Below are positions 4,882-18,066 of a DNA stretch of 43,031 nt, piece by piece (positions within the stretch are counted from its first letter, which is position 1; each line of letters opens with the position of its first letter). The DNA is from Phycisphaerales bacterium. Its GTDB lineage: Bacteria > Planctomycetota > Phycisphaerae > Phycisphaerales > SM1A02. The stretch spans positions 1 through 43,031 of the forward strand of contig SIAP01000016.1 of NCBI GenBank assembly GCA_009691725.1, read 5' to 3'. The notes below the pieces were generated by a model. The model ran no database searches, was not told the DNA's origin, and worked only from the letters and a program-made list of their open reading frames with translations. A program made the translations under genes and the position numbers.

Positions 4882-7800
4882 CTACTCGGGACGTCCCTTT
4901 GCCTTGGATCTCTCAAGTGAGGAGAGCAATCGGACGGCCGCTCCATACAACGAGCGCCGCTTTGGCTTTGCAGGTGTCTCGCTTGATGGAGGTGCTGATG
5001 GAGGTGCGCTCGATGAAGTCGGTGCGGATGGTGCGGGCTGTGGTGCTGCGGGAGGCGGCGAATCTGATCGCACAGAGGGTCGCTCGGGGCGGCGTTGTGG
5101 TGTTGGATTCACATCACGCGCAGGCGCGGCGCGCGCAGCTCCGCGCTGTGGTGCTCCACCAACCGCAGCGCGTGGGGTCTCATCCTGTCTGCCGCGATCA
5201 TTCCCATCGCGCCGACCGCGACCGCCACGACGGTTTCCGCGCCGGCTTCGCCCAGATGACTGACCCTGCCCAGATGATTGTCCCTGCCCAGATGATTGTC
5301 CCTGCCCAGACTGTCCGCGTCCTCCGCCGCTGGATCCGTGACGATCACCGCCATCGGAACTTTGGTTTTCGTCTTGGGCATCGCCAACCGATTCACTCTG
5401 GGGCGCGTGGTCCTGTTCGGCGGAATCTTCCGCATTGCTTTGCGTCGCCGCTGGATAAAGCACCTGCGCTCTCGCGATCAACTCGACGGGGAGCATGAAT
5501 GTCGTCGGCAACAGAAGCGCGGCCGTTTCGACATCTGCATCGGCACGGAGACGTGCAATCAATTCATCGACCGTCGTGTTGAGAATCCCAGCGACGCGAT
5601 TTGTCTCGAATGAGGCTTGTTCTTCAACCATATCGCCGATGGTTTCAATCATCCGTCGTCCGCGACCGCGCCGTCTTCGGCTCGATCGTCCGCCGCGATC
5701 GCCGCGATCTGCTTCACGTGTTGGTCGCGCGGGTTGTGCGGCGTTGATGCGCCCCTGTTGAGCCGCGGGTCCGTCACTGCCCTGCGGTTTGCGCGGTTCA
5801 TCTCGTCGACCCCGTCCGCGCCGTCGTCCCGAGGTCCTCGAAGACTCTGCCTGGTTCGTCGATTCCACGCGTTCGTCCTGCGATTGTCGCTGTGCCATCG
5901 AGTCTCGTACCGACACCTCATCCTCGAGGACATCCGGCAGATCATCAAATCCGCCAGCGAGCGCGATGGCAGTGGCATCCGCAGGAGCAGGGCGCCGCTT
6001 GCGTCGCCTTCGCCGTGCGAGTGCCTCCGCCGGAGTGAGCTCCGCCTCTTCTTCTTCGGGGAGTTCTTCATGGACGCTCCCTGCAATTGGACCACTCATC
6101 GATGGCAGTCGATCCAATTCCAAGTCCGAATTCTGATCGTCGTATGCGTACATCTCCACGCGATCTGCGGCGAATGCTTCGCTGATTCGAACATCGATGC
6201 GCTTGGACGATCGCTCTTCCAATTCGTGCATCGCTCGGCGACGATTGGAGAGCAATTCTGACGCAACACGAACCGAGCAGACCACTTCGACGCGCTGCAC
6301 ATTCTTATAGCTGAAGAGCAGTGCAACGCGGCGCATGGCATCTGCGGCGACCGCACCTGCAACTCGAATCTCGCCGCTGCCGGCGCAATGTTGGCAGTCG
6401 CTGTAATGCATCTTGCGCAGACTTGGTCGCATGCGCTGGCGTGTCATCTCGATGATGCCGAATTCGCTGATCGGCGCAAACGAACTCTTTGCTCGGTCCA
6501 ACTTGAGCAACTCCGTGAGCCGTTCTTCGATTTCGCGGCGATGCTTGACAAACCGCATGTCGATGCAATCCATCACAATCAATCCGCCAAGATCACGCAA
6601 TCGCAATTGGCGGCAGACTTCCTCGATCGCTTCACGATTCGTTTGGAATGCGTTGGTCTCGGAGTCACGCGCACTGCGACTGCGTCCGCTGTTGACATCG
6701 ATGGCGACGAGTGCTTCCGTTTGATCGAAGACGAGCGCACCACCCGATGGAAGTGACACCGTTCGGGAGTGGATCTCATCAATCTGTCGTTCGATGCCAT
6801 ACGCCTCGAAGATCGGTGCCTTCCCGTTGTAATAGAAGACCTTTCCAGAGGTCTTTGGCGCGATGACGTCAAGGAACATCTTGGCGCGTTCAAAGGCGCC
6901 TGGGCTATCCACCACAATCGATTCAACTGTGGAGTCAGTGTGATCACGCAGCGTGCGCACGAGCACATCGCTCTCCGTGTAGAGCTCGCACGGGGCGCCA
7001 GTCTTCTCGCTGCGTTTCTCCATCGCATCCCAGAGACGGTTCAAGTATGCGGCATCGCGCTGGAGCTCCGTCTTCGTGCTCTCAAATCCGGCAGTTCGCA
7101 GGATGAATCCGAATCCCTCCGGCAATTCAAGCGAGTCGAGAATCCGGCGCATCTCGCGGCGCTGATCCTCGTCTTCAACTCGACGCGAGACGCCGACACG
7201 ATCCATGTCTGGCATCATCACCAGCAATCGCCCTGGAAGACTGAGATAGCTCGTGAGCGTCGGTCCCTTGGAACCAAGCCCTTCTTTGATCACTTGAACG
7301 AGGATCTCTTGACCCTTCCGCAGTGCCTGCTGAATCAGTGGTCGCTCGCTCCGCGCGATTTTCCTGCCGACTTGCTCGGTGGTGCGGTCTTCACCGGGGA
7401 AGTACTTTGGGTGCAGATCGCTGATGTGGAGGAAGCCGTTCTGACCCGAGCCAAAGTCGATGAACGCAGCTTGGATCGCCGCTTCCACGTTCATGACTCG
7501 CCCCTTGTAAATGCTTCCGACATTCGTCGCCGATGCTTCACGCTCTGAAAAGTAAGAGTCCAATCGACCATCCGCGAGGATCGCGATGCGGCACTCATCG
7601 CCAGGCTCATCATTGATGATCAGTTGAATTTTTCGAGTCGGAAGTGCGCGGGTCGAACGGGCACGCGACTTTGGTTTCTTCGCGGGAACCTCGTCGGATT
7701 CCGGCGCACGCGGGGCATCGGAATCCGCTTCGCCGTCAGCGCCAGGGAGTGAAGGGTCGTTGGGATTCTCGGCTTCTGAAGCCTCGAGTTCTGCGCCGCC

Positions 7801-11120: not shown

Positions 11121-11166
11121 AAAAAACAAACGCCCCTGGCAATGCGCCGGGGGCGTTCTGTTTGTT
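11121..11166. terminator. Bidirectional rho-independent terminator
   Basis: AACGCCCC pairs with GGGGCGTT around a short loop. An A-run precedes the stem (A6 at 11121-11126) and a T-rich tract follows, so it can stop transcription in both directions. It lies between the convergent ends of the PEP-CTERM-like gene (11091) and dnaK (11210). Confidence 0.8.
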
Positions 11167-11209: not shown

Positions 11210-13117
11210 CTAGTTGCCGTCCTTCACTTCGTACTCGGCATCGATGACATCGTCCTTCTGCTTTCCGCCGCCCGCTGGAGAATCGCCAGTTGGCGCACCT
11301 TCAGCCTTGGCATTCTTACTCGCCTCGTACGCAGCCTTTCCCAACTCCATCGACGCCTCGTTGAGCCCCTTGAGCGCGGCCTCGATCGCGGCGCGATCGT
11401 CTTCCTTGGTCTTGGATTCGACATTCGAGATCGCACTTTCGACCTTCGCACGCCCCTCGGGGGAGATCTTCGCCCCATGCTCTTCGAGTGACTTCTTCGT
11501 GGCGTAGATCGCCTGCTCTGCTTGATTTCGCACATCGACCAATTCACGGCGCTTCTTGTCGACACCCGCGTTCTCTTCCGCTTCACGACGCATCCGTTCG
11601 ACTTCGTCCTTACTCAAGCCACTCGACCCCGTGATCTGAATCTCCTGCTTCTTACCGCTGGCCTTGTCTGTCGCAGAGACATTCATGATGCCGTTGGCAT
11701 CGATGGAGAACTCCACCTCAACTTGTGGCACGCCACGAGGAGCCGCCGGAATGCCGGTGAGATCGAATCGGCCGAGACTTCGATTGTCAGTAGCGAACTC
11801 ACGGTCGCCTTGCAGAACATGAATCGTGACCGAGGTCTGATGATCCGCAGCAGTCGAAAAAACTTCCTTCTTGCTGGTGGGGATCGTGGTGTTCCGCTCG
11901 ATCAGGCGCGTCATGACACCGCCGAGCGTTTCAACGCCCAGCGAAAGAGGAGTGACATCAAGGAGCAAGACATCCTTGACTTCTCCCTGCAGGACTCCGC
12001 CTTGAATCGCAGCACCGATGGCAACGACTTCATCGGGGTTGATGCTGCGATCGAGTTCGGTTGTATTGAAAACCTCCTTTGCGATCTCTTGAACTTTGGG
12101 GATACGGATCGACCCGCCGACCATCACAACATCCTGAATGTCCTTGGCATTGAGTTTGGCATCCTTGATGCACGCAAGGCAGGGTCCACGGAGTCGATTG
12201 AAGAGATCCGCACAAAGTTCCTCGAACTTTGCGCGAGTCACAGTGATTTGCAAATGCTTGGGTCCATTCTGATCTGCGGTAATGAAGGGAAGATTGACTG
12301 ATGTCTCGAGCTGCGTCGAGAGTTCAATCTTTGCTTTCTCCGCTGCTTCCTTGAGGCGCTGGAGTGCCATCGGATCCTTGCGGACATCGATTCCCTCTCT
12401 CTTGCGGAACTCCTCGCCAACAAAGTCGATCAGGCGTTGATCGAAGTCATCGCCTCCGAGGTGCCCGTCGCCGTTGGAGGCGAGTACTTCGAAGACGCCA
12501 TCGCCAACATCGAGAATCGAAACATCGAAGGTTCCACCTCCCAGATCAAAGACAGCAATGCGCGAGTTCTTGCGCTTCTCTAATCCATAGGCGAGCGCCG
12601 CAGCGGTGGGTTCATTGATGATTCGCTCAACCTTGAGTCCAGCGATTTCGCCAGCGTCCTTGGTCGCCTGCCGCTGCGCATCATTGAAGTATGCAGGGAC
12701 AGTGATGACTGCGCGATCCACTTTTTCTCCCAGGTACTCCTCCGCCACGCGCTTGAGGTCCCTCAGGATCATCGCGGAGATTTCTGGGGGAGTAAAGATC
12801 TTGCCTCGGATGTCCACTTTCACCAGGTCGTCTGGGCCACCAGTCACCGCATACGGAACTCGCGTTTGCTCCTCTTTCACTTCAGAGCCGCGCCGTCCCA
12901 TGAACCGCTTGATGGAGAAGACGGTGTGCTTGGGATTGGTGATTTGCTGATGGCGTGCAGGTTGCCCGACGAGCTGTTCGCCCTTTTCAGTGAATCCAAC
13001 CACGGATGGCGTCGTTCGGTTCCCTTGCGAATTGATGAGCACTTTTGGGCTGCCGGCCTCCATGATGGAAACAACTGAGTTGGTTGTGCCGAGATCGATT
13101 CCAATAATTTTTGACAT
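11210..13117 (-). CDS. dnaK: Chaperone protein DnaK (Hsp70)
   Basis: The Hsp70 chaperone binds and releases unfolded segments under ATP control with DnaJ and GrpE, neither of which is in the window. From the ATG at 13117 the protein has 635 residues. The start matches the family: [14 protein letters not shown]. The ATPase domain shows [10 protein letters not shown] and G-G-D-D-F-D. The linker [13 protein letters not shown] leads to the substrate domain, and the end is [13 protein letters not shown], a variant of the usual acidic tail. A TTG 37 codons upstream is in frame but unlikely to be used. Upstream is a sequence matching the sigma-54 promoter consensus, and no CIRCE element is visible. 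Confidence 0.97.
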
Positions 13118-13154
13118 CGTGGTTCCGTTTCTGCCCCAAAGGGCGTCGACGAAG

Positions 13155-13171
13155 AGCAAAGCCCGTGCCAA
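13155..13171 (-). promoter_or_regulatory. Sigma-54-type (-24/-12) promoter upstream of dnaK
   Basis: On the minus strand the sequence reads TTGGCACGGGCTTTGCT, matching the published sigma-54 consensus YTGGCACG-N4-TTGCW at every defined position. The -12 element lies about 38 bp upstream of the dnaK ATG, which would give a leader of roughly 25-30 nt. It also lies in the gap to the divergent phosphatase gene. Activator sites, if any, would fall at about 13240-13300 inside that gene. The assignment rests on sequence match and position only. Confidence 0.6.
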
Positions 13172-13215: not shown

Positions 13216-14244
13216 ATGCAGACTGCAACTCCCACAGATGAGCGCCTCAGCATCGCCACGGAGGCAATTCTGGCAGGATTGGCAGCGCTTCGGGTGACGA
13301 TGCGCCACCCGCGTGCGCGGGAACCGCACATCAAACCAGATGGCACTCCGGTGACGGCCGGCGATCTTGCGGTTCAGATGGCAGTCTGTTCTGTGTTGGC
13401 GCAGCGCACCCCATCCTTGTCGATTGTTGGCGAGGAGGGCGAGTCGAGTTTCTTGGGAACAGCAGGCGCGGAGTTGCTCGCTCGAGCACTGGTCGCAGTG
13501 CGCGAGTCGATGGGGTCTGCCGCCCCTGCGGACCCGGTTCAGTTTCTTCGAGGTGACAACCGACCCACCGGCGACAGTTGGTGGACAGTCGATCCGATTG
13601 ACGGCACAAAAGGATTCCGAAGCGCACGACACTACGCGCTCTGCTTGGCCCTCGTGGAGAATCGCCAACCAACTGTTGGGGTGTTGAGTTGCCCCACGCT
13701 GGTCATGGGCAGGGATCCGCTGGAGGTTGGAAATGACGAGCAATTCGGCACCGTCTACGCAGCGCTGCGCGGTTGCGGCGCATGGAAGTTTCAACCGTGC
13801 GATCAATCTCGAACGCTGCCGAGGACGGCGCTGCGGGTGCATCGCCCAAAGCACACTGGCGAATCGTGGCGCGTTTGCGATTCCATTGAAGGTGGATCAC
13901 GCGCGGAGCGAATGCGATCGGTGATGGCTTCGACGGATCTGAAATGGAGTTCGGTGTCGCTCGACAGCCAGTGCAAGTATGCGCTCGTTGCAGAGGGAGC
14001 GGCGGATTGTTTCATGCGTGTTCCCGCCGCACATGGAGCGGAAAAGGTGTGGGATCACGCACCTGGCGTGGTGGTCGCTGAAGAAGCAGGTGCAGTGATT
14101 AGCGATGTGCTCGGGAAACCGCTGATTTTTGCGGGAGAGTCGCTCAACTTGAATGCGGGCACGCTCGCATGTGACATCGCCATTGCGGCGCTCGTGCACG
14201 CCGCCGCTGCGAAGTCTCTTCCGCACGCTCCGGTCGCGCCGTGA
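13216..14244 (+). CDS. HAL2/CysQ-like 3'(2'),5'-bisphosphate nucleotidase (inositol monophosphatase superfamily)
   Basis: A 342-residue metal-dependent phosphatase of the lithium-sensitive inositol monophosphatase superfamily. Seen are G-E-E-G at residues 72-75, D-P-I-D-G-T-K-G-F at 126-134 and W-D-H at 279-281, the three metal-binding motifs in order. The K-G-F after the DPIDGT motif and the W-D-H-A context match HAL2-type enzymes, which hydrolyse 3'-phosphoadenosine 5'-phosphate in sulfate assimilation. Inositol phosphatase activity is possible. The ATG at 13216 is chosen because homology begins soon after it, although the frame is open back to 13111 across the dnaK promoter. It is divergent from dnaK and overlaps the next gene by four bases (GTGA). 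Confidence 0.85.
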
Positions 14245-16039: not shown

Positions 16040-16397
16040 GGAAACTCCAACCGCAATGCGTGAAACGCTCCCTGCCTAACATGTATATTGTGCCACGGGA
16101 ATTGAGGAAGAAAAGTCTGCAGAGGCACAATTGCGAAGTTTTTGCGTCTGAATTCTGCCGATTTGTCAAGGTGGAGAAAAGTCGAATCTTTGTTTGCATT
16201 TGGGTGGATTCGAGGCATCTTGAGAGTGCGAGAGGACGATGGACCTCTCGATGCTGATTCTTTGAAGAGAATCGAGCATCTGACCGAGTCTGCGTGCGCA
16301 GACTTTGGCGAGTGGAAGAGGAATTGAAGAAAGTCATCGAAAGTCAGGGTTCTTGAGGGTGGCATCGATCTGTGCACCGCAGTATTGACTTTCGCCG
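16040..16397. other. Divergent intergenic region with structured leader
   Basis: This 358-bp gap separates the divergent pseudopilin and ECF sigma genes. I see no convincing coding frame in it. It holds three consecutive inverted repeats (16229-16304, listed separately). It also holds two direct copies of GAAAGTCA (16329-16336 and 16339-16346) and one inverted copy TGACTTTC at 16386-16393, five bases before the sigma ATG. Pairing between these could mask the start region, where no normal ribosome binding site is seen. Confidence 0.5.
16229..16304 (+). ncRNA. Three consecutive hairpins, candidate structured RNA leader
   Basis: Hairpin 1: CGAGAGG (16229-16235) pairs with CCTCTCG (16244-16250). 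Hairpin 2: GATGCTGATTCT (16250-16261) pairs with 16268-16280, with one bulged G. Hairpin 3: AGTCTGCG (16287-16294) pairs perfectly with CGCAGACT (16297-16304) around a 2-base centre. They are packed end to end in non-coding sequence 94-169 bp upstream of the sigma gene. There is no U-run after the third stem, so it is not a standard terminator. Strand is uncertain; plus is chosen because of the downstream sigma gene. It could be a regulatory leader, a small RNA or merely a clustered set of operator dyads. Confidence 0.4.
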
Positions 16398-16964
16398 ATG
16401 TTGAAGGAGATGGACTTGGAGAACGAAGACTGGGTACTGATGCAGAGGATCTCGCAAGGCAACGAGGTTGCCGTGCGGACGCTGTACGACCGCTTTGGAT
16501 CGCTTGTTTTTCGCAACGCATGCCAAGTTCTTGGTTCGGTCGCAGAGGCCGAGGACGCCACACAAGACGTGTTCGTGCAGATTTGGCGCACAGCCAATCG
16601 GTACGACCCAACCCGCGCAAAGCTGGTTACTTGGGTGATGCTCATTTCCCGTCGAATGTTGATTGACCGCCTTCGTCGGCGGATGGTCCGACCAACAGCG
16701 ATTTCGATTGACGAAGGGAAGCACGATGTTGCAGATACAGCAGATTTGATGCAGGACATCAAAGAGGGCAGCGCTGCCGTTCGCCGCCGAATGGCAGAAC
16801 TTCCAGACTTGCAACGCGAAGTCATTGAACGGGTTTACTTGCAGGGTTATTCGCTCCGAGATGTGGCGGATCAGCGCAATATGCCTGTTGGAACGATCAA
16901 GAGCGCATTGAGCCGAGGTTTGAATCGCCTTCGCGAAAAGTTTGGGATCGAGCAGACTGGATAA
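16398..16964 (+). CDS. ECF-type RNA polymerase sigma-70 factor
   Basis: A 188-residue sigma factor with only regions 2 and 4, the ECF layout. Region 2 covers about residues 20-95 with R-T-L-Y-D-R-F-G and A-E-D-A-T-Q-D-V-F-V-Q-I-W. Region 4 covers about 130-180 with L-P-D-L-Q-R-E-V-I-E-R-V-Y-L-Q-G-Y-S and the helix-turn-helix V-G-T-I-K-S-A-L-S-R-G-L. The sequence suits the RpoE/SigK-like groups paired with RskA-type anti-sigma factors. The start may be the ATG at 16398 or at 16410. Neither has a well-placed ribosome binding site, since the AAGGAG at 16404 abuts the second ATG. The next gene, 226 bp downstream, encodes a probable membrane anti-sigma factor. Confidence 0.92.
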   Translation: MLKEMDLENEDWVLMQRISQGNEVAVRTLYDRFGSLVFRNACQVLGSVAEAEDATQDVFVQIWRTANRYDPTRAKLVTWVMLISRRMLIDRLRRRMVRPTAISIDEGKHDVADTADLMQDIKEGSAAVRRRMAELPDLQREVIERVYLQGYSLRDVADQRNMPVGTIKSALSRGLNRLREKFGIEQTG

Positions 16965-17055
16965 GAGGGCTCGGGATCCCGCCGGCCATGGTCGGATTCT
17001 GCAGATTGGTGCATCGAATGAGCACCGTGTTGCGTATCGGTTGGCTAGAAGGAAC

Positions 17056-17073
17056 GGCTGACGTGTGTCAGCC
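17056..17073 (+). other. Hairpin between sigma and anti-sigma genes
   Basis: GGCTGAC and GTCAGCC flank GTGT, a perfect 7-bp stem in the 226-bp gap between the two genes. There is no T-run after it. It may be an RNA processing or stability element, or an operator. Confidence 0.4.
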
Positions 17074-17146
17074 TCTTCAGGAGGACTGCGTAGCCCAGTG
17101 GCTCGTAGTGGGAAAAGGGATTGGTGGTGACTGCGCCTCTCCCGGA

Positions 17147-17170
17147 CTGAGGGTAATAAGGGACCCCCAG
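17147..17170 (+). other. Second hairpin just upstream of the anti-sigma start
   Basis: CTGAGGGT pairs with ACCCCCAG with one mismatch around an 8-base loop. It ends 20 bp before the ATG at 17191, close to the AGAGG ribosome binding site. It could tune translation or partially terminate transcription between sigma and anti-sigma genes. Confidence 0.35.
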
Positions 17171-17190
17171 TTGTTGCGTCAGAGGTGTGT

Positions 17191-18066
17191 ATGTCTAGTT
17201 TTTCGTCCAACCGTGATGAAATCATTGAGCTTGCTCAACTCGAAGCACTTGGCGTGCTTGAAGGTGTCGATTGTTCGAGACTAGAGCGGCTCTTTCGAGA
17301 TACCACGCTGCAGGTGCAGCGAGAAGTTCTCGATCTGCAGGCTGCGGTCGTCACTCAAACACTCTTGCTTCCAACAATTGAACCAGAGGGTTCGCTTCGA
17401 CTTCGTGTGCTCGCGACGGTTGCGCAGGCGGTCGAGGCAAGCGATGCAGAACTCGCACCGATTGCAACCATCGGTCGACCGACTGCTGGCGCGGAAGTGA
17501 GCAGCATGTCGTCAGATTCCGAGTCGTCACTTTCGTCTGCGCGCACCTCGAAACCACTCGCGGTTGATCTGCGTTGGCGTCGCTCATCGATGATGTGGAG
17601 GGCCGCATGCGTGACTGCGATCGGCGGCCTGGTCGTTTCTCTTCTCTTCCAGATTTCTACATCGCGGCAGTCAGTGCGAATTAGTGAGCTGGCACTGCAG
17701 AATGAAACGTCCGTCGAACTCTCGTCCATGATCGGATTGGGGTTTCGGGAGTTTCTCAATCAGCAGTGTGTGGTGAAGGGACTTTCGGGCGCGACCATCC
17801 GCGACAATGGATCTGCCACGGTGATATTGACTCCCACATTCGACGCCGTGATGGTGGTGTGGATTGAACTCGCGCGCGATCAGACACTGACGCTGCGATC
17901 AGTCGATCGCCAATCAGGGATTGCAACCACGGTGGGCGATTTCAAGGTGGGGAGTCCTGTCGGCGGTGCTCGCCTCGCGGTTCCAACCGGTGGGGCGAAT
18001 GCGAATTCGGATTGGCAAGTCGTGGACTCCCGTGGGTCGATGCTCTTCTCAACGCGACCGCAATAA
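17191..18066 (+). CDS. Probable membrane anti-sigma factor (RskA-like)
   Basis: A 291-residue protein following the ECF sigma gene. Residues 1 to about 75 are helical and acidic, with E-I-I-E-L-A-Q-L-E-A-L-G-V-L-E-G resembling the anti-sigma domain of RskA-type proteins. No zinc-binding HxxxCxxC motif is present. A single membrane segment lies at about 135-155 (A-C-V-T-A-I-G-G-L-V-V-S-L-L-F). The outer part ends with short beta-like motifs typical of the RskA C-terminal domain. The start ATG at 17191 has AGAGG five bases upstream. It probably holds the sigma factor at the membrane until released by proteolysis. RseP-like proteases do this elsewhere, but a link to the rseP in this window is not shown. 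Confidence 0.72.
   Translation: MSSFSSNRDEIIELAQLEALGVLEGVDCSRLERLFRDTTLQVQREVLDLQAAVVTQTLLLPTIEPEGSLRLRVLATVAQAVEASDAELAPIATIGRPTAGAEVSSMSSDSESSLSSARTSKPLAVDLRWRRSSMMWRAACVTAIGGLVVSLLFQISTSRQSVRISELALQNETSVELSSMIGLGFREFLNQQCVVKGLSGATIRDNGSATVILTPTFDAVMVVWIELARDQTLTLRSVDRQSGIATTVGDFKVGSPVGGARLAVPTGGANANSDWQVVDSRGSMLFSTRPQ

Follow-up and report, generated by a model that had tools for sequence, protein, structure and literature searches.

A sigma-54 promoter before dnaK in a Phycisphaerales genome and its probable place in a chaperone regulon with a helically phased upstream repeat

Heat-shock control in bacteria is usually described in terms of sigma-32, HrcA/CIRCE, CtsR or HspR. The dnaK gene considered here was predicted to stand under sigma-54, and the question raised by the locus is whether this promoter is an oddity of one gene or belongs to a wider system. 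The gene lies in the window, i.e., the whole stretch of 43,031 nucleotides that was analysed, which is contig 24 of a Phycisphaerales assembly (2.07 Mb, 51 contigs, 92.6 percent complete). The features of the locus are given below.

11121..11157, minus strand: terminator-like hairpin followed by a T run, 3' of dnaK (seen by eye; the scan lists the hairpin on the plus strand only)
11210..13117, minus strand: dnaK, 635 aa, ATG at 13117-13115 (TIGR02350, 931 bits against a cut-off of 822.6)
13144, minus strand: predicted transcription start, 12 bases past the C of the -12 GC, placed by sigma-54 geometry
13170-13155, minus strand: sigma-54 -24/-12 promoter site TGGCACGGGCTTTGCT, 37 bases 5' of the dnaK ATG
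13216..14244, plus strand: divergent gene of the inositol monophosphatase family (closest NCBIfam model 3'(2'),5'-bisphosphate nucleotidase, below its cut-off)
13263..13275, minus strand: degenerate enhancer-like repeat TGCCAGAATTGCC, two mismatches to TGCCA-N3-TGGCA

The dnaK gene looks monocistronic, given the terminator-like hairpin and T run after it, and a gap of 98 bases separates its ATG from that of the divergent gene (13216). Elsewhere in the window, an open frame of 293 codons (16347-17225, minus strand) had no Pfam family and may not be a gene. Together with the T at 13171, TGGCACGGGCTTTGCT fits YTGGCACG-N4-TTGCW at all specified bases, as the original prediction had stated and the window scan confirmed; the GG and GC elements stand at their fixed spacing (TGGCAY-N5-TTGCW). 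Besides the dnaK site, the window had no exact match. When as many as two mismatches were allowed, 7 matches were observed and 9.8 expected, so the site is distinguished solely by its exactness and position. When the 98-base intergenic gap was shuffled, an exact site on either strand appeared in 19 of 200,000 shuffles. At sigma-54 promoters, transcription starts 12 bases past the C of the -12 GC, and a start near 13144 would give the dnaK mRNA a leader of about 27 bases, in agreement with the short leader proposed at the outset. The claim that no CIRCE element is visible also held: its consensus was absent from the window at up to three mismatches. Moreover, a simple scan found no sigma-70-like promoter.

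The conservation of the site was evaluated across the order, in which 142 of 151 genomes had a DnaK match. The dnaK upstream regions examined numbered 110 (30 loci from the DnaK search and 80 fetched) and covered 75 genera. The 32 genomes omitted from the 142 were 29 mostly low-scoring, more distant ones and three without the DnaK N-terminus; three of the 29 (G007, G012 and G061) had both the promoter and the repeat described below before dnaK in a search of 13 genomes. The relaxed form YGGCRY-N5-YTGC was present on the coding strand within 250 bases 5' of the dnaK start in 110 of the 110 regions. It occurred in none of them in the antisense direction and in one at -500 to -251, and the shuffle control (200 sets) had a mean of 0.8 and a maximum of 4. 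The strict form TGGCAY-N5-TTGC preceded dnaK in 100 regions. The motif is therefore kept by every relative examined, which, with the gap shuffles, bears out the earlier judgement that a chance match was unlikely. In addition, 19 loci were hand-picked from 80 named DnaK loci for planctomycete-like titles and high identity; 14 carried the relaxed form and 12 the strict form. Neither form was present in L043, L044, L046, L048 and L050; going by their unchecked titles, L048 belongs to Planctomycetia and the remaining four to other phyla. The DnaK of L038, titled Singulisphaera sp. GP187, is 92 percent identical to that of the window, a likeness as high as that among members of the window's own genus, and the title may be wrong.

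An element that the original prediction had missed, the inverted repeat TGCCA-N3-TGGCA, recurs upstream of the dnaK promoter. Between 40 and 180 bases upstream, 96 of the 110 regions had it with no more than one mismatch (shuffle mean 0.4) and 35 had it exactly (shuffle mean 0); the 14 regions that lack it at this stringency count against the regulon reading described below. The spacer was specific, with 96 regions at a spacer of 3 and between 0 and 5 regions at spacers of 0-2 and 4-8. The distances from the repeat to the -24 element were mostly 64-130 bases and clustered near 64, 75, 84, 95, 106, 117 and 128. According to a phasing analysis with one median per genus (66 genera; two distances above 135, namely 160 and 167, were excluded), the best period was 10.7 bases, with a vector length of 0.69. 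None of 20,000 jittered sets equalled this vector length, although the relatedness of the genera keeps the figure from being a strict probability. Steps of about 10.7 bases indicate that most of the tolerated insertions and deletions spanned full turns of the helix, as activation by looping requires. In several genomes of the phylum outside the class (e.g., G337:C1, G282:C1, G196:C1 and G217:C1), a second conserved stretch, of the type GTAAG ... CTTAC, was seen by eye, seemingly between the repeat and the promoter.

The repeat before dnaK in the window itself is located within the 5' part of the divergent gene's coding sequence, at an upstream distance of 105 bases from the -24 T, and scored 2.3 bits (shuffle P 0.052). 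Four further members of the genus were examined, and each had a similarly degenerate repeat before dnaK, at 96-116 bases. The preservation of the window's repeat is ambiguous, because coding constraint could also explain it. The weak repeat at its own dnaK is the main weakness of the regulon reading for the window itself.

The other chaperone promoters of the same genome were explored. The whole genome has three exact matches to TGGCACN5TTGCW: two precede genes, namely dnaK and a clpB-like gene, and the third falls within an open frame of 518 codons. With one mismatch allowed, the promoter pattern alone had 110 matches, and the pattern read backward had 57; hence, it is too weak genome-wide, and specificity needs its pairing with the repeat. 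Among 100 of the 110 places, 11 more promoter-like sites were drawn, of which 10 lay inside open frames with no downstream gene start and the 11th was the groESL promoter. This sigma-54 promoter (contig 34, position 53112; groES identified by eye) had a repeat of 20.0 bits at 83 bases, and that of a second groEL gene (contig 50) had one of 10.2 bits at 73 bases. Each of the two repeats had one mismatch to the consensus, and neither score was reached in 500 shuffles. The clpB-like gene, with Clp_N and AAA domains, had its promoter site 14 bases before the ATG and a weak repeat at 55 bases (6.2 bits, shuffle P 0.012). Two promoter-like sites without a chaperone gene had repeat scores of -6.5 and -12.7. 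In six loci of the genus with the second groEL gene, the promoter was present in all six and a repeat of at least 8 bits in four (L310, L311, L312 and L315); L313, which could not be oriented, is not among the six. The remaining two, L309 and L314, had no repeat, and the full repeat-plus-promoter pattern had no match in the window's own genome (row G000); both results count against the regulon reading.

The full pattern, i.e., the repeat, a distance of 50-110 bases and the promoter, was learned from the dnaK regions only and was searched for in 13 genomes of the order, selected for few contigs. It gave 18 matches in 12 genomes, and the reversed pattern gave none. For each match, the downstream gene was taken to be the longest of the open frames that begin within 400 bases, with its family called by a Pfam scan. 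All 18 were chaperone genes, encoding HSP70 (6), DnaJ (4), Cpn60 (4) and HSP20 (4). The matches before dnaK were expected, since the pattern was derived from it, and the 12 others are the independent ones. Across the phylum, 70 of 294 genomes had a total of 90 matches, and the reversed pattern matched 11 times; two pairs among the 90 have one promoter in common. The loci examined from this set were 28 new ones and two known from the 13-genome search. Among the 28, 24 preceded genes of the HSP70 (12), Cpn60 (8), HSP20 (3) and Cpn10 (1) families. The other four, which count against the reading, stood before HEAT repeats, a Band 7 protein, an oxidoreductase and a gene without a family. No family was found in L288, where one frame was scanned. 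The absence of the pattern from 224 of the 294 genomes also counts against the regulon reading. The original prediction of sigma-54 control of dnaK was thus supported by the computable tests and was too narrow: beyond dnaK, the sequences point to a regulon of chaperone genes that has its own enhancer, specific and in phase with the helix, and a likely activator.

Sigma-54 cannot open a promoter without an activator. The two genes whose presence the original prediction had left to be checked, rpoN and an activator gene, are both encoded in the genome. There is one rpoN (173.4 bits), and when all 34 candidates were scored against Sigma54_activat, one match was strong (L002, 221.5 bits). Five weaker matches of 20-33 bits are probably other AAA+ ATPases. 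The L002 protein has a receiver domain (PF00072), an AAA+ sigma-54 interaction domain (PF00158) and a Fis-type helix-turn-helix (PF02954). Its loop reads GAYTGA in place of GAFTGA, and the F to Y change in this loop is tolerated. Across 27 distinct activator sequences (26 from the family and one from another), the receiver keeps its Asp, Thr and Lys, and the helix LGIGERTLYRK is likewise retained. None of the 25 NCBIfam equivalogs listed for the protein reached its cut-off, the best being AtoC with 399 against 714 bits, and the closest solved chain by sequence was 4l4u, of the NtrC family.

An activator match at E <= 1e-80 was present in 151 of the 151 genomes of the order. Exactly one strong activator was found among the candidates scored in each of 23 family genomes, including the window's own; in the 22 others, about the best 21 candidates per genome were scored, and true counts could be higher. 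Genomes outside the family had 2-13 among the candidates scored. The region upstream of dnaK was available for 20 of the 23 genomes. The repeat was exact in six (G028, G066, G078, G093, G144 and G087, the last at 167 bases, the furthest), had one mismatch in six and had two in five, which belong to the window's own genus. It was not recognisable in three (G037, G072 and G129), which counts against a link between the activator and the repeat. Given a single activator and the need of sigma-54 for one, activation of the chaperone promoters would by default fall to the L002 protein, and the genomes with one counted activator suggest that it may bind TGCCA-N3-TGGCA. Autoregulation of the activator gene was considered and rejected, as the promoter and the repeat were absent upstream in the 19 readable of 37 activator loci (the own genome being counted twice). 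In the own genome, the activator gene stands, as judged by eye, between murC-, murB- and ddl-like genes and a pair of membrane permease-like genes. The activator also adjoins murC/murB/ddl-like genes in G093 and G144, as it does on contig 11 of the own genome (L329, 637-5747 minus and 5826-7205 plus), and this stable neighbourhood might hint at a link to the envelope.

The classical heat-shock regulators were searched for in the same genomes. HrcA was found in none of the 151 genomes of the order, the own included. The RpoH model reached its cut-off in none of the 151, and all had weaker matches (138.5 bits against 323.1 for the best in the own genome), as is expected of general sigma-70-family proteins. 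The RpoH model describes proteobacterial proteins and could miss a divergent heat-shock sigma-70. A study of heat shock in Rhodopirellula baltica (PMC2754498) describes the induction of dnaK, groEL, dnaJ, grpE, hsp20, clpB and cpn10. It also describes rpoH, rpoE and rpoN as present, with none regulated in heat shock, and the authors considered that their data suggest a significantly different response cascade. The lack of heat regulation of rpoN counts against sigma-54 control, yet such control acts through the activator.

At the level of sequence, the regulon reading is supported by the promoter, the enhancer and its helical phasing, the specificity for chaperone genes, the presence of rpoN and one strong activator, and the finding of neither HrcA nor a true RpoH. 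On these grounds, we consider it quite probable that the sigma-54 promoter of dnaK works within a chaperone regulon run by an NtrC-type activator, which would replace sigma-32 or HrcA control in this lineage. The promoter set would comprise dnaK, dnaJ, groES/groEL, hsp20 and clpB, where RNA polymerase with sigma-54 would wait at -24/-12 as a closed complex. The NtrC-type regulator (receiver, AAA+, Fis-type helix-turn-helix) would bind copies of TGCCA-N3-TGGCA that lie for the most part 64-130 bases upstream. Heat or protein-folding stress would lead to phosphorylation of its receiver, and an activator hexamer would assemble, loop the DNA and open the promoter by ATP hydrolysis. Phosphorylation would thus be the switch, with heat or misfolded protein as the presumed signal.

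The signal is the point at which the strongest alternative departs. The promoter and the enhancer may be real and the signal not heat; sigma-54 would then adjust the amount of chaperones to the state of nutrients, envelope or growth, with heat acting at a different level. The activator is a canonical response regulator, and no kinase was seen beside it in its own neighbourhood or in four relatives (L345-L348), by eye and with a crude motif. Moreover, the murC/murB/ddl-like neighbours in the own genome and two relatives, assigned by eye, could hint at an envelope link. However, the pattern stands before the classic set of heat-shock genes, R. baltica is reported to induce such genes by heat (PMC2754498), and neither HrcA nor a true RpoH was found as a substitute; we regard this alternative as unlikely. 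It is distinctly improbable that a different activator drives dnaK, for example one encoded in the missing 7 percent of the genome. In favour of such an activator are the state of the assembly (51 contigs, 92.6 percent complete) and the weak repeat at its dnaK, but 22 further family genomes, at least 93 percent complete, also had one activator each among the candidates scored, and six of those have the exact repeat before dnaK. A chance consensus match, with dnaK read from an unrecognised sigma-70-type promoter, fits the lack of excess sites in the window at two mismatches and was rejected as scarcely credible, given the complete and strand-specific conservation in the 110 regions and the phased enhancer in relatives.

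The regulon run by an NtrC-type activator, which remains the preferred reading, has counterparts among known systems. It resembles the NtrC, NifA and ZraR systems in the receiver, AAA+ and Fis-type domains and in the helix-phased upstream repeat, and it differs from them in that a chaperone regulon is concerned. The groESL operon of Bradyrhizobium is under NifA and sigma-54, and E. coli ibpB has a sigma-54 promoter; both are chaperone operons under sigma-54, as proposed here. However, they are single operons beside classical heat-shock regulators, whereas several chaperone operons are involved here and neither HrcA nor a true RpoH was found. Compared with HrcA/CIRCE and sigma-32 control, the target genes are identical, but HrcA and RpoH above its cut-off were each found in 0 of 151 genomes and CIRCE was not found in the window. 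Sigma-54 promoters at dnaK have a precedent in this phylum, as a 2025 study (PMC12316311) already predicted them at the GroEL, GroES, IbpA, GrpE, DnaJ and DnaK COGs of Planctomycetota and Bacteroidota. The promoter class and the gene set are in common with that study. It differs in reporting enrichment at the level of COGs; its main text uses neither 'UAS' nor 'upstream activating', and its passages on the chaperone genes name no activator for them. No report in print of an enhancer or activator for these chaperone genes was found, within a coverage that did not extend to the in silico work on Pirellula activators by Studholme and Dixon (2004). A sigma-54 regulon would place the chaperone set under ATP-driven, response-regulator gating, and the specified enhancer and candidate activator make the question of the R. 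baltica cascade directly testable.

A wider reading is offered tentatively, being about as easily wrong as right. In much of Planctomycetota, an orphan NtrC-type response regulator acting with sigma-54 may serve as master switch for the heat-shock response, each chaperone operon being preceded by a phased TGCCA-N3-TGGCA enhancer, and in the small genomes of the family this regulator would be the only activator left. If this is true, the heat-shock response would be the main reason for the retention of rpoN in those small genomes.

The 2 Mb genome has three GroEL genes, of which two are tandem (G000:C50, 76491-80134), the first with its own sigma-54 promoter and repeat. On contig 34, an open frame of 169 aa (L330, 664-1170, minus strand) lies between the sigma-54 promoter of groESL and groES. 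It had no Pfam or NCBIfam match, appeared by eye to be receiver-like without the acidic pocket, and is a possible feedback regulator.
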